Source: an uncultured Bacilli bacterium
GTDB lineage: Bacteria; Bacillota_I; Bacilli_A; RF39; UBA660
DNA: 63,300 nt
Assembly (NCBI GenBank): GCA_944332205.1
Contig: CALVJN010000005.1
Location: 1 to 63,300, forward strand
Direction of reading: 5' to 3'
Part shown: piece after piece, positions 10,525-20,824 of the stretch
Layout: each line of letters opens with the position of its first letter
Position numbering within the stretch: the first letter of the stretch is position 1
Notes under the pieces: generated by a model
What the model was told of the DNA's origin: nothing
The model's database searches: none
Seen by the model: the letters and a program-made list of their open reading frames with translations, nothing else
Program-made: the position numbers and the translations under genes

Positions 10525-10799
10525 ATCTACTGGCACCTCACATTCTTTTGTTATTTTCACATATTACACTTCCTACCATGGCTACTACAATTTTGCGCAT
10601 CTTAATAGTAACATCAAATTTTCTATTATGATAATTTATTCCTTTAAATGGCACTTTATTTCCTTTTTTGGAATTTTTAAATATATTTAAATTATTTTTT
10701 TGTATTAAATGCATTAATTATTACATTTGAAGTTTAATTTGTTTAACACTGTGTTTTTTATTTTATACTTTTAAATGTATAAATTAGGAAGTGAAGTAT

Positions 10800-11402
10800 A
10801 TGAAAGATTTATTTTTAAATAACTATATGAATGTGGTTAAAAAAAACAACCCTGCTTTTTCTAAAGATGAATTAGATAAAATCAAGTATGGTATTGAAGG
10901 CATTTATTTAACAGTTACTAAATTATTTGTCATTTTGCTATTAGGTTTTATTTTTAATATATTATATGAAATTTTATTATTATTGTTATTTTATAATTTT
11001 TTACGTTTTTTTGGATTTGGGTATCATGCTAGAAATAGTACCGAATGTTTAGTTATTTCCATAACTTTATTTTTCATTTTACCGTTTTTAATTTCTAAAC
11101 AACTATTAATATTTAATTATAAATGGTTATTAATAAGTTTATGTATATTTAATTTTTTATTATTTGCACCTAGCGATACAAAAAAAAGACCTATGATTAA
11201 TAAAAAGAAAAAAATGATTAGAAAATGTTTAATTATTCTTGTTACCATTATCTATTCGATTATTATTCCTTATGTAGATTATAAAATTTCATCAATTTTA
11301 TTATTATCAATTGTTATTCAATCAATCATGGTAAATCCTTTTATATATATGGCAACTAGGCAGCCATATAATAATTATAAAAATTACATTAATTCTGATT
11401 AA
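10800..11402 (+). CDS. agrB: AgrB-type pro-peptide endopeptidase
   Basis: A polytopic membrane cysteine protease of about 200 aa that trims and cyclises the AgrD pro-peptide. The AgrB signature is visible: FLRFFGFGYHARNSTEC with catalytic His76 and Cys83 (from this start), then the FAPSDTKKRP loop, and four to six hydrophobic segments. The ATG at 10800 has AGGAAGTG 6 bp upstream; a GTG at 10791 would add three residues. agrD follows 48 bp downstream. A TATACT -10-like box lies near 10763, but no clear -35 box or AgrA site is seen. The gene converges with agrC/agrA, which lie on the other strand. Confidence 0.92.
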   Translation: MKDLFLNNYMNVVKKNNPAFSKDELDKIKYGIEGIYLTVTKLFVILLLGFIFNILYEILLLLLFYNFLRFFGFGYHARNSTECLVISITLFFILPFLISKQLLIFNYKWLLISLCIFNFLLFAPSDTKKRPMINKKKKMIRKCLIILVTIIYSIIIPYVDYKISSILLLSIVIQSIMVNPFIYMATRQPYNNYKNYINSD

Positions 11403-11450
11403 ATATCAATTTTGATATTTAATATATATTATTATTATAGGAGGTATAGT

Positions 11451-11573
11451 ATGAAGAAAAAAGTAGCAAGCTTATTAACTGCAATTGCTGTATTAGCAAG
11501 TGGTGCTGCAAGTATGGGATGCATTGTACTTTTAGTAGATGAACCAAGAGCGCCAAAAAATTTAATAGACTAG
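11451..11573 (+). CDS. agrD: AgrD-type autoinducing peptide precursor (40 aa)
   Basis: A short ORF directly after agrB with a perfect SD (AGGAGG, 6 bp before ATG) and a TAG stop. The 40-aa product has three parts. The first is an N-terminal Lys-rich amphipathic/hydrophobic segment (MKKKVASLLTAIAVLASGAA). The second is a putative AIP core with a single Cys24 (SMGCIVLLV). The third is a charged tail DEPRAPKNLID that fits the DE-x-x-x-P recognition tail of AgrD peptides. The mature signal is predicted to be a thiolactone closed on Cys24, with a ring of five or six residues (CIVLL or CIVLLV); the exact cut is not determined. A short inverted repeat (11402-11420) lies between agrB and agrD. Confidence 0.88.
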   Translation: MKKKVASLLTAIAVLASGAASMGCIVLLVDEPRAPKNLID

Positions 11574-11599
11574 AAAAATAACAAAATCAATTTTATTTG

Positions 11600-11632
11600 C
11601 CAACCTCTTTGAGGCTGGTTTATTTTAATTTA
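11600..11632 (+). terminator. agrBD terminator
   Basis: CCAACCTC / GAGGCTGG stem with one mismatch and a 3-nt loop, followed by a T-rich tail, 27 bp after the agrD stop. Confidence 0.75.
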
Positions 11633-12093
11633 TAATATATTTATTATTATATGTATTAAAAATAATACAGATTTTATTAAAATTAAAGACAAAGTTAACA
11701 ATAGAAAAATTAACTTTAATATTAAACAAATGTTTAAAAACATGAAATAAATTTTTAGATGCACGTATAAACATAATGTTTTTACTATTGGCAAAACTTA
11801 GACACTCTTTTAAAAAAGGATAAAATTACAATATTTATTTAATATTAACTCTATTACTATTAAACATTAATAAAAATATGAAATATAAATTATAATTCAT
11901 TTAAGTTTTATTTATATTCTTCATACTTTTGATATGATCTATCTTTCAATTCTAATATTTATTTACTTTTATTTAAAGTAATAGGTCATTTCCAATTAAA
12001 GTCTCTCAAAATATGAAAATTTATTCTTTGTGTAATAAATTAATAACTATTATTTTTTAATTTGTGCAAAAAAAACATAATTTTCTTATAAAT
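11633..12093. other. Gene-free AT-rich gap between agrBD and agrC
   Basis: About 460 bp between the two convergent halves of the agr locus. I see no ORF with an SD, no tRNA and no repeat. It could hold a small RNA, but nothing in the sequence shows one. Confidence 0.4.
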
Positions 12094-12121
12094 AAAAAAG
12101 ATATAAATTTATATCTTTTTT
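12094..12121 (-). terminator. agrAC terminator
   Basis: Perfect 28-bp palindrome with A6 and T6 flanks, overlapping the agrC stop; it can act on both strands. Confidence 0.85.
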
Positions 12122-13410
12122 ATTATTATTTTTTGAATATAAAAATCATTAATTATCCTGTTTTCCAAAAAAAATATATCAGATTTTTTTGCTATTTTAT
12201 TTGCTAAATAAAGACCATTACCTCTATTTTTCCCTTTGGTTGAATATCCTTTTTCACTTACTTTGTTTAACTCTAATTTTCCTGCATAAGTATTTGATAT
12301 GGTTATTATAATATCTTTATCATTCCTGTAAATTTCACATGAAATCATTCTCTTTTCCGACTCTTTAGCAGCCTCTATAGCGTTATCAAAAAAAATCCCA
12401 ACCAATCTGCAAAGCATTTTATTTTCTTCAATATTTAACTTGGCTAATTTATCTCCGACTTTATTTGATATATCTATATACAAAACTATGTTATTTTTCT
12501 CGGAAAATATTATTTTATAATATAAAAGTCCTTTTAATCCTCCTTTGGGAATGTTTCTTAATTTTTGAATATTTTTACTTTCTAAATCAATTTCATCTTT
12601 TATTATATTGTCAATATATTGAATAGCTTCTTTATTATTTTTGATTATAGCACGTAATGCAGCTAATTGATTCTTTGATTCATGAATATTTACATTTTCA
12701 TTATCCATCCATTCCTCAAAAGTCTGCACATATTCAAACAATTGATCATATTTAATTGTTAAAAGATTTTTGTCATATTTTTCTTTTAAAAATATAATGG
12801 ACAAAATTAAAAATATAACAATTCCTAATATTCCAATTATAAAAGTTCTATTCAAATAATAATTTTCAAACAAAATATAAATGCCAATGCTCAAAGCAAA
12901 AATTAGTAAAATTATAAATGTTATTAATTCTAAACTTTTATGTTTTGCAGTTTCTAAAATTATATCTACTATTTTGTTTTTAAATCCATTTATATAAAAA
13001 ATCCCGACCTCTATTAATCCAACTAATAAATTTGTTAATATTATGTAAAAATTTTCTGTTCTTATTGTTTGAATACTTAAGAATCCAACAAAGATTATAG
13101 ATACTATTAAATCTGATAAAACCAAAATTATCATAAAGATTCCTGAAAATAAAAACGATGTTAAAAATGAAATTTTATATATAAAAAACAAGCAAAATAT
13201 AATTACTGTAAAAAACAAAATAGGACTTATTACATTATAATTACTACTATAAATTAAAGAAATAGGCACAAACAGAAAAATAAGGAAAAGCAAATCATTT
13301 ATTGTCAACATTTTTTTTCTGTTATTGTATAATAAAATTGATTTAGCACAAAGCACTACTGTTAAACTTTGAATTATTGAACCAATTACATTACCTATAA
13401 GACTTGACAC
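12109..13410 (-). CDS. agrC: AgrC-type sensor histidine kinase (GHKL)
   Basis: A 433-aa receptor kinase. The first about 200 residues contain six or seven hydrophobic segments (peptide-sensing domain). Next comes the dimerisation helix with the phospho-acceptor in IHESKNQLAALRA, then a GHKL ATPase domain with the N box FFDNAIEAAKES and the G2 box YSTKGKNRGNGLYLAN. This matches the AgrC/HPK10 class. The start is taken as GTG at 13410, because GAAGGTG lies 7 bp upstream. A longer frame reaching 13449 would overlap agrA by 59 bp instead of 20. It lies downstream of agrA on the same transcript and is the likely receptor for the agrD peptide, by context. Confidence 0.9.
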   Translation of the reverse strand: MSSLIGNVIGSIIQSLTVVLCAKSILLYNNRKKMLTINDLLFLIFLFVPISLIYSSNYNVISPILFFTVIIFCLFFIYKISFLTSFLFSGIFMIILVLSDLIVSIIFVGFLSIQTIRTENFYIILTNLLVGLIEVGIFYINGFKNKIVDIILETAKHKSLELITFIILLIFALSIGIYILFENYYLNRTFIIGILGIVIFLILSIIFLKEKYDKNLLTIKYDQLFEYVQTFEEWMDNENVNIHESKNQLAALRAIIKNNKEAIQYIDNIIKDEIDLESKNIQKLRNIPKGGLKGLLYYKIIFSEKNNIVLYIDISNKVGDKLAKLNIEENKMLCRLVGIFFDNAIEAAKESEKRMISCEIYRNDKDIIITISNTYAGKLELNKVSEKGYSTKGKNRGNGLYLANKIAKKSDIFFLENRIINDFYIQKIIIKKI

Positions 13411-14122
13411 TGTTGCACACCTTCTTTTTGTTATTTCTCGAAATATCAAAGGTTACAATTCCATTTTTAAACAATATTTTATTTTCTGAATAATCATATT
13501 CACTTATTTGGTCTACATTAACAATGCTACTTCTACTTGTCTTTATAAATCTTTTATCTAAAAGTTTAAATACTTCGTTTAAAGTTTTATGAATTACGTA
13601 ATCTCCGTAGGTTGCTTTTACTATACACTTTTTGCTATCTTTTTCTTTTTCAATTATAACAATATTTTTAAAATCTATTCTTTTTATAACTCTATTTGAC
13701 TCAAAGGTTAAGCACTTTTCTCTGTTATCATAATTTTTCTTTACTCTTTCTAAATCTTCTTTGAGCTTGTTTTCATAATTATCAAATTTATTTATAAAAT
13801 CCAACAAATAAAGTCTATTGCTTAATGCTTCAAACTTTAATTCATTGTGTGCCGTTAAAAAAATAATTAGTGAATTCCAATCATCTAATTCTTCTCTTAT
13901 ATATCTAGCAGCATCTATTCCAGAATTGCACTTTGTTTCAATATCCAAAATATATAATTTAAACCCTTCGATTTCTTTTATTTCTGACTTAAACTTATCA
14001 CTATAGTCTTCATACATATAAAATTTATCAACTATGTCAAAGTTCATCATGTAGTTTTTAATTATTTTTCTAATTTTTTCTGAAAATTCTTTATTATCAT
14101 CACAAATTATAAAATTAATCAT
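13391..14122 (-). CDS. agrA: AgrA-type LytTR response regulator
   Basis: A 243-aa protein. The N-terminal receiver domain has the acidic pair D8-D9 (FIICDD), phospho-acceptor D60 (YILDIETK), and a FLTAH block. The C-terminal LytTR DNA-binding domain (about residues 140-243) has RVIKRIDFKNIVIIEK and FIKTSRSSIVNVDQI, as in AgrA/VirR. The start is ATG at 14122 with AGGTG 6 bp upstream; a GTG at 14131 is possible. A 10-bp inverted repeat (14106-14115 with 14137-14146) encloses the SD and start. The order agrA-agrC, convergent with agrBD, differs from the classical agrBDCA operon. Confidence 0.9.
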   Translation of the reverse strand: MINFIICDDNKEFSEKIRKIIKNYMMNFDIVDKFYMYEDYSDKFKSEIKEIEGFKLYILDIETKCNSGIDAARYIREELDDWNSLIIFLTAHNELKFEALSNRLYLLDFINKFDNYENKLKEDLERVKKNYDNREKCLTFESNRVIKRIDFKNIVIIEKEKDSKKCIVKATYGDYVIHKTLNEVFKLLDKRFIKTSRSSIVNVDQISEYDYSENKILFKNGIVTFDISRNNKKKVCNSVKSYR

Positions 14123-14189
14123 TACCTTCACCTACTATTTTATAATGAATAATTTTACCATATTTTTCCATTTTTTTAAATATATATAT

Positions 14190-18099: not shown

Positions 18100-18286
18100 A
18101 AATTACGCGATTGAGTTTAGGCAGATTATAACACGGTTTTTCATATCCATTAAAATGACGGCCTAGCTCTTTTCTTTTTATTATCCTAGTTTTAGAATGT
18201 GAGGATTATTTATTTAATCTTATATAACAAGCGTGATGAGGAATATGAGGACAAAGAGTTCAATCGTAAATGAAAGGATGGTGCTT
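18100..18286 (+). other. IS110 left non-coding region, candidate bridge-RNA locus
   Basis: About 190 bp between the presumed left end and the transposase start, clearly richer in GC than its surroundings (GGCAGATTATAACACGG, GACGGCCTAGCTC). IS110-group elements express a bridge RNA with target- and donor-binding loops from this position. I did not fold it, and the RNA itself is inference. Confidence 0.35.
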
Positions 18287-19468
18287 ATGCATAATTGTTT
18301 AGCCATTGATGTAGTTAAAGGGAAAAGTATGGTTACTTTAATTAGTTCTTGTGGTGAAGTTCTAATTGAACCATACGAAATTAATCATTCTATTAATGAT
18401 TTTTCTAATTTACTTAATAGAATTAATAAATTGAAATTAGGAAGCATTTCTGTAATAATGGAATCTACTGGTATTTATCATAGACCAGTAGAGAGATTTT
18501 TGTTAGAAAATAATTTTAAAGTATTTGTTATTAATCCTATTTATGGAAAGATGCATAAAAGAAATTTAAGAAAAACAAAAACTGATAAAGAAGATTGCTT
18601 TAATTTGGTTAATTTATTTCTAACTAATACATTTAAAGAATATATCAAACCTGAACAGTTATGTTTGGATTTAAATGCTTTATCAAGACAATATTTTGCT
18701 TTAGATGAATTATGTGTAAATCTGAAAAATAGATATAGAAATTTGGTTTATTTATGTTTTCCTGAATATGAATTAATATTTAAAAATAATACTATTTATT
18801 CAAGCATTGCCTTAGAATTTATAGAGAAATATCCACATGCTGATATTATTGCAAATACTAGAATAGATTGTTTACAAAATTTTTTTAAAAAGCATAATTT
18901 TAGTTACTAGAAGTCTAAACCAATCAAAATTAAAGAAGCCGCTTGTAATTCTTATCCTTCAGTTGATATGAATGATGAAACTGTTTCTAACTTATCTCAA
19001 ATATCTAGACTGGTTAATGAATATCAAAAAGCAATTGATATTATTAAATATAAAATTACTTGTTTAGCTAAGAAATCTAAATATTTTGAAACAATTAACT
19101 CTATTTATGGCATTGGTGAGTTTTCTGCTTCTATCATTATTGCTGAGCTTGGCGATATTAATAGATTTAATAATATTAAAGAACTAACTGCTTATTGTGG
19201 TTTAGATCCTTCTATTAAACAATCTGGAAGAAGTATAGATATTCATGGTCCTATATCTAAATCAGGTAATAAATATTTAAGAAAGATATTATTTGTTAGT
19301 TGTCTAAATATTGTTAGATTATCTCCTAAATGTCATATTGAAAACGATATAGAAATTTATTACAGAAAAAAGCGTAATGAAGGTAAACATCATTACGCAG
19401 CCATTATTGCTTGTACTACAAAGCTTCTACGCAAAATTCTAGCTTTATGTAAGCAATTAGATAAATAA
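18287..19468 (+). pseudogene. IS110-family transposase with in-frame amber codon
   Basis: One continuous reading frame of 394 codons interrupted only by TAG at 18908-18910. The N-terminal RuvC-like DEDD part has LAIDVVKGKSMVTLI, MESTGIYHRPVERF and KTDKEDC; the C-terminal transposase_20 part has IYGIGEFSASIIIAELGDI and YCGLDPSIKQSGRS with the conserved Ser. The length without the stop (about 392 aa) fits the family. The start is ATG at 18287 behind AAAGGA; earlier in-frame starts lack an SD. TAG is a normal stop elsewhere here (secA, agrD), so this is most simply a recent nonsense mutation. Read-through cannot be excluded. Confidence 0.85.
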
Positions 19469-19851: not shown

Positions 19852-20137
19852 TTACCATCTTTTTATATCATGCTTATTCTTTAACCATGCAGTAAAATTT
19901 ATATCAAAATATATATAACTAATAATAAAAACAAGAAATGTAAATAACCATACATCTGAAAAATCATTTTCAATTTTTAGATAAAACTCACAAAAAAGCA
20001 AGAATAAATCAATAGATAATATTAATACTTCTATTATTATTTTTCTGTGGTTTATTTCTTTCCCTACAGGTGTCTTTTTAAACTCTTTTTCATATTTCTT
20101 TTTTTTCTTTATTTTCTAAATCATAATATGTAATCAT
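19852..20137 (-). pseudogene. Frameshifted two-helix small membrane protein
   Basis: The ATG at 20137 has an AAGGG SD about 9 bp upstream. It opens a frame (MITYYDLENKEKK) that meets a stop after an A8 run near 20103-20110. Removing one A restores a 94-codon frame to the TAA at 19852. The restored protein has a Lys/Glu-rich N-terminus with the block FKKTPVGKEINHRK and two hydrophobic segments (about residues 36-51 and 59-76). It ends KHDIKRW. I do not recognise the family. It could be a true pseudogene, a phase-variable homopolymer, or a sequencing error in the A-run. Confidence 0.6.
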
Positions 20138-20533: not shown

Positions 20534-20824
20534 TTATCTGATCTTTGGTGCGTCATCATGCGATTTTTCCTCATTAAATAAACTTTCTATTGTCTCTCTT
20601 AATTCTTCTATTTGTTCATCTCTAAATAAATTTGGATTATCGATTGCAATTTTTTCGCTCATACCTTGTGAATTACCCGCAAATATTTTTTCTAATTCTT
20701 CTTCTTTTAATTCTTCCATTTGTCTATTTCTAAATAGATTTGGATTATCGATTGCAATTTTTTCGCTCATACCTTGTGAATTACCCGCAAATATTCTTTC
20801 TAATTCTTCTTCTTTTAATTCCAT
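20534..20824 (-). CDS. Tandem-repeat protein with RiPP-leader-like motifs
   Basis: A 96-aa acidic, Cys-free protein built from two nearly identical 36-aa units and a diverged third. Each unit opens with a helix of the type M-E-E-L-K-E-E-E-L-E-K-I-F-A-G-N, followed by SQGMSEKIAIDNPNLFR. The ELxEEELEKxxAG[N/G] pattern resembles leader peptides of ribosomally made, double-glycine-type peptides. The last unit keeps only the helix (IEELRETIESLF) and ends SHDDAPKIR. SD AAAGGAGT lies before the ATG. There is no signal peptide and no modification enzyme, transporter or protease in view. A precursor of a modified peptide is one possibility; a non-exported helical repeat protein is another. The gene is real by SD, composition and repeat conservation. 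Confidence 0.7.
   Translation of the reverse strand: MELKEEELERIFAGNSQGMSEKIAIDNPNLFRNRQMEELKEEELEKIFAGNSQGMSEKIAIDNPNLFRDEQIEELRETIESLFNEEKSHDDAPKIR
20609..20824. repeat. Two direct 108-bp repeats inside the leader-like gene
   Basis: Units 20609-20716 and 20717-20824 are almost identical over most of their length; for example GGATTATCGATTGC recurs at 20634 and 20742. The period keeps frame (36 codons), so the gene grew by in-frame duplication, and the few differences suggest a recent event. Confidence 0.9.

Follow-up and report, generated by a model that had tools for sequence, protein, structure and literature searches.

An orphan protein with two PCAT-leader-like units in one chain, from a lineage of gut Bacilli

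The window analysed here, a stretch of 63,300 nucleotides from an uncultured Bacilli bacterium, carries on its minus strand a short gene whose product, P0001, appears from its sequence to be a real, lineage-specific orphan protein of the PCAT-leader kind (PCAT, peptidase-containing ABC transporter), with two leaders in a single chain. The preferred reading, held tentatively and at a little under even confidence, is that P0001 is a precursor peptide of the double-glycine-leader type, which stays unmodified and is served in trans by the single PCAT of the genome.

P0001 is a 96-residue open reading frame with the translation MELKEEELERIFAGNSQGMSEKIAIDNPNLFRNRQMEELKEEELEKIFAGNSQGMSEKIAIDNPNLFRDEQIEELRETIESLFNEEKSHDDAPKIR. 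The perfect ribosome-binding site AAAGGAG lies just 5' of its ATG, so that P0001 reads as a translated gene; the ORF is real. The features of the locus are as follows.

20534-20824, minus strand: P0001, orphan protein with two leader-like units (ORF with SD AAAGGAG)
20783-20821, minus strand: leader segment 1, ELKEEELERIFAG (positions -13 to -1, with L-12, E-8, L-7, I-4, A-2 and G-1), matrix score 7.9 bits
20703-20810, minus strand: first copy of the 108-nt direct repeat
20675-20713, minus strand: leader segment 2, ELKEEELEKIFAG, matrix score 9.7 bits
20595-20702, minus strand: second copy of the 108-nt direct repeat, 94% identical to the first
20537-20674, minus strand: stretch behind the second site, NSQGMSEKIAIDNPNLFRDEQIEELRETIESLFNEEKSHDDAPKIR, 46 residues, homologous to single-unit relatives
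19855-20136, minus strand: frameshifted homologue of the 106-residue membrane protein of genome G254 (start near 20136, open part 20094-19855)

The initial annotation described two 36-residue units and a core without Cys, and the translation bears this out, together with an in-frame tandem duplication of 108 bp whose copies are 94% identical. The copies differ at six nucleotides, which alters four residues and leaves one further codon synonymous. The leader peptide MEELKEEELEKIFAG is followed by NSQGMSEK, both units end in Ala-Gly and not in Gly-Gly, and the residues after the two sites are Asn15 and Asn51. With a GRAVY of -1.17 the acidic cargo is hydrophilic, and the segment behind the second site, which also has no Cys, carries a net charge of -6. 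An AlphaFold model of P0001 (mean pLDDT 51) contains helices only and is too poor for a fold search. The third, diverged unit that had been proposed for the end of the chain, QIEELRETIESLFNEE, was rejected: it has no GG or AG site and no core, and it aligns with the C-terminal helix that single-unit homologues normally have, its equivalents in the alignment being REKQIEELKKEK in G254 and REKMIEKLKEEK in G805.

Both units match the canonical leader of peptidase C39 exporters (PCATs), with L-12, E-8, L-7 and I-4 in register. For the LahT150 protein the final 13 residues of the leader are enough, the key positions being Leu-7, Leu-12 and a Val, Ile or Leu at -4 (PMC6363468), and the PCAT1 structure reveals leader contacts that involve Leu-7 and Leu-12 (PMC6959990); E-8 is also part of the PCAT leader consensus (PMC6363468, PMC6959990). 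All of the key positions for docking on LahT150 and PCAT1 are present in the P0001 leaders.

The likeness was scored in both directions. The forward matrix was built from 53 PCAT-linked leaders only, with all orphans left out as a guard against circularity, and was compared with a control set of 111,226 13-mers. The score of leader segment 2 (9.7 bits) is reached by 6 of these control 13-mers and that of segment 1 (7.9 bits) by 11, while the segments of G805, G001 and G010 are each reached by a single one and the segment of G389, a g160 genome, by 216. Leave-one-out scores of the PCAT-linked leaders have a median of 22.7 and a lowest value of 5.7, and the P0001 segments lie in the low-scoring tail of true leaders. 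The reverse matrix was made from 12 orphan segments that had been found by profiles free of any PCAT-linked leader. When 1,866 small frames were scored with it, a PCAT-linked GG peptide came out on top in 29 of the 31 PCAT loci. Furthermore, the tandem relatives in G203 and G010 exceed the cut-off of the NCBI bacteriocin_sig model (TIGR01847); P0001 itself gives weak matches, below the cut-offs, in Pfam and NCBIfam. The two matrix tests and the bacteriocin_sig matches together argue that the leader similarity is real, and the double-glycine-type pattern reported by the initial annotation thus survives in both directions.

Plain protein searches with P0001 recovered no relatives in phages, plasmids, viral contigs or genome contigs. 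With profile searches, relatives emerged from the same GTDB family, first in G254 (E 4e-16), G389 and G461 and further in G805, G203, G820, G819, G813, G372 and G001, and leader-only profiles added G010, G357, G853, G424 and G344. Homologous units are present in other genera, and the unit family appears, from these searches, to be restricted to this lineage of gut Bacilli. One of the carrier contigs comes from goat rectum and one bears a rabbit ('Lapin') isolate name. Profile A3 found no relatives in viral contigs, searches of PHROGs and PDB sequences returned chance-level matches only, and the other species of the same genus yielded no close copy of the P0001 unit. Three class-level matches outside the family were rejected because they sit within larger proteins, and many weak profile matches proved on inspection to be internal segments of unrelated proteins. 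The architectures of the relatives can be listed as follows.

Single unit: G805, 58 residues
Tandem leaders, in four lineages: P0001; G203; G001/G357; G010
Unit before a multi-pass membrane protein: G254
Unit before about 100 residues: G389, G461 and G372 (three g160 genomes)

The homologues are thus not always single-domain proteins, since tandem and fused forms exist, and the profile searches do reveal similarity of the helix to leader families. To speak of two leader-core pairs per chain, as had been done at the outset, describes P0001 fairly, and further lineages have tandem leaders too. Both cores of the G203 protein start with [V/I]PYEY and represent a second, older leader-core duplication. 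The 140-residue g160 protein gave an AlphaFold model (pLDDT 54.5) that is too poor for a fold search. The protein of G010, which belongs to the same genus, has 90 residues and two true GG leader segments (VFGG and TYGG; L169:2695-2967, minus strand), and its gene lies just downstream of rpoA/rplQ-like genes. The G254 protein (L067:235-921, plus strand) has a second leader-like segment, SNLKEIVGG, before its first membrane helix, which may be due to chance.

The genome from which the window comes, G000, has one PCAT, encoded on contig 8 (C8:22330-22734) and unlinked to P0001. It consists of C39, ABC membrane and ATPase domains by Pfam and is followed by two GG peptides; the linked leader is MTELSHENLKKINGG, followed by GISIW. 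A PCAT is present in 138 of the 145 genomes of the family, and its co-occurrence with P0001 was rejected as evidence for export because it is nearly universal there. The PCAT loci that were read (G000 contig 8, L006:8322-11298; L140-L168) usually continue with a conserved pair of GG peptides, A (..GGGIS..FLIGVIDGYVRPLKCN) and B (..GGISISGTLINSLVRGINALLDLGRSLGSAIRRI....C), of which B typically has one Cys near its C-terminus. Bacteriocins are not usually conserved to this degree, which suggests a core function.

As an exported precursor P0001 would act as follows. Each 13-residue helix (such as ELKEEELEKIFAG) would dock on the C39 peptidase domain of the PCAT by way of L-12, L-7 and I-4, the peptidase would cleave behind A-G, and the charged, helix-prone segment beyond the cut site would be exported. 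The tandem duplication would provide two docking and cut sites per chain, and one chain could thus release a peptide of 36 residues from its middle and one of 46 residues from its C-terminal end. P0001 is probably unmodified, since it has no Cys and no YcaO was found in 12 carrier genomes. The fusion of the unit to further domains in two lineages and the lack of linkage between the gene and the PCAT speak against an unmodified exported precursor. If the proposal is true, one PCAT, retained by almost all members of a large group of uncultured gut bacteria, also serves scattered, lineage-specific hydrophilic peptides beyond its two linked ones, and such peptides, some with two leaders per chain, escape gene-cluster mining.

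Several known systems resemble P0001 in part. The PCAT double-glycine leaders of class II bacteriocins and ComC/Blp pheromones (TIGR01847, PF10439/PF03047) share with it the register L-12, E-8, L-7 and I/V-4, the small residues at -2 and -1 and the short ORF, whereas P0001 has Ala at -2, two leaders per chain, a charged, Cys-free cargo and no linked PCAT. In class II bacteriocins a GG precursor is followed by a small immunity-like membrane protein; P0001 is followed by the frameshifted 106-residue-type gene, and the unit gene of G254 by an intact one, but the P0001 cargo is acidic and hydrophilic. Prochlorosin-type precursors, with Nif11/nitrile-hydratase leaders, have a leader end of the ELxxEELxxVxG(G) type, similar to that of P0001, and many of them share one transporter; however, they become lanthipeptides, and P0001 has neither Cys nor a long Nif11 leader. 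The EbfG1-4 proteins of Synechococcus elongatus are small GG proteins whose role is not that of a bacteriocin; they share one C39 transporter, PteB, and one of them has a non-GG (GA) site, comparable to the AG of P0001 (PMC4997328); each has a single leader and has been subjected to genetic and secretion tests, whereas P0001 has two and is known from its sequence. Among the pneumococcal rtg peptides, several GG peptides are served by one PCAT, RtgAB, and extra leader motifs set selectivity; these peptides are transporter-linked and under Rgg/SHP-like regulation, unlike P0001 (PMC7018657).

The -2/-1 residues at the putative cut site are GG in 53 of 53 PCAT-linked leaders of the lineage and AG in 15 of 21 orphan sites, a contrast that is inflated because the orphan sample is biased, having been found by AG-bearing profiles. 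Published leader ends are GG, GA or GS (PMC6363468), and the GG motif has been reported as needed for both binding and cleavage (PMC7018657). P0001, with AG in both units, fails this defining feature of the double-glycine leader family, and for that reason it is described here as working like such a precursor and is not filed as a proven member. Furthermore, the sequence after the site is conserved and not hypervariable, being as well kept as the leader in comparisons between genera (15-16 of 27 identities versus 6-9 of 13).

These properties could also be accounted for by a small, fixed docking domain that is never cut, with the helix binding the C39 domain or another partner and the protein staying in the cytoplasm as a regulator, an adaptor or a membrane-anchored partner. 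This is a possible but doubtful alternative. Consistent with it are the AG in place of GG, the conservation that continues straight across the putative cut site, the fusion of the unit before a multi-pass membrane protein in G254 and before the part of about 100 residues in the g160 genomes, and the 106-residue membrane-protein gene behind the unit gene of G254, which has a frameshifted counterpart behind P0001 in the window. A free helix, however, has no need of Ala or Gly at -2 and Gly at -1, yet this pattern is kept in 20 of 21 orphan sites, and the sites of G203 and G010 retain true GG. Ala and Gly also interchange at the site between the homologous proteins of G001 and G357. The retention suggests that the site must still fit a narrow peptidase cleft, and, together with the interchange, it leads us to prefer export with cutting at AG over uncleaved docking. 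A rather unlikely proposal is that in this lineage PCAT-docking leaders have been re-used as a modular tag, giving either tandem peptide 'polyproteins' or, with Ala at -2, an uncleaved docking element that fronts membrane or helical proteins and steers or controls the sole exporter. The AG site offers a clear test of the strictness of the C39 peptidase and of leaders as uncleaved docking tags.

The homologues of P0001 are solitary genes amid varied housekeeping genes, and in some groups their places are fixed, as in G424 and G853, where they adjoin the same neighbour gene. The homologous tandem-leader orphans of G001 and G357, which represent two genera, share a conserved place by sufB and ssb (L076:9601-9804 and L170:4305-4523, both minus strand). 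In the window, the membrane-protein gene 400 bp downstream of P0001 resembles the 106-residue protein of G254 (blastp 3e-18, 38% identity over 92 residues; score 162, with shuffles reaching at most 40), whose gene is intact and directly follows the unit gene. The unit gene and the 106-residue membrane protein thus form a pair in two genera. The frame of the window copy changes at an A8 tract near 20100, which may reflect either a damaged locus or a misassembly. The gap behind P0001 was searched for the membrane part of the G254 protein and shows none of it, and searches for the 106-residue partner family in viral contigs, plasmids and NCBIfam gave no result. About 1 kb from P0001 lies an apparently split IS110-type transposase (18233-18910 and 18968-19468, plus strand; PF01548, PF02371).

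The frameshifted partner gene raises the question of decay, in which P0001 would be the leftover of a two-gene system of unit protein and 106-residue membrane protein that slippage duplicated not long ago and that selection no longer maintains. We consider this unlikely but a serious rival. In its favour are the frameshift in the A8 tract, the six differences between the repeat copies (four altered residues, one synonymous codon), the split transposase nearby and the fact that searches brought up no close counterpart of the unit from the other species of the genus. On the other hand, the P0001 ORF is intact and has a perfect ribosome-binding site, 15-16 of 27 post-site residues are kept relative to other genera, the A8 frameshift could be a homopolymer assembly error, and the gap holds no remnant of the G254 membrane part. 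It is more improbable still that an acidic helix unrelated to PCATs has come to look like a leader by chance or convergence: the library matches of P0001 are indeed below the cut-offs, and the G389 score is reached by 216 control 13-mers, but the forward and reverse matrix tests and the above-cut-off bacteriocin_sig matches of G203 and G010 argue against it.

That P0001 is a RiPP precursor modified by an unlinked enzyme, the initial annotation's new RiPP class with distant enzymes, is most improbable: the leader type is common to many RiPPs, and many precursors per system are known, as in the 30 substrates of Prochlorococcus MIT9313 (PMC6363468), but P0001 has no Cys, the 12 carriers have no YcaO, the post-site segment is conserved, the homologues are solitary amid housekeeping genes, and no dedicated maturase was seen beside any of them or, as the annotation had correctly stated, adjacent to P0001 in the window. 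The only SPASM protein common to most carriers was considered as the maturase and rejected, because it is the uvrB-uvrA neighbour, lying between these two genes in G000, G001, G010 and G203, wherever the locus was read.

The window also contains an agr-type quorum-sensing set (10791-14131). It comprises an AgrB gene (10791-11402), an AgrD-like short peptide (11412-11573; ..MGCIVLLVDEPRAPKNLID) and, beside them on the opposite strand, genes for a GHKL histidine kinase (12109-13449) and a LytTR response regulator (13391-14131).
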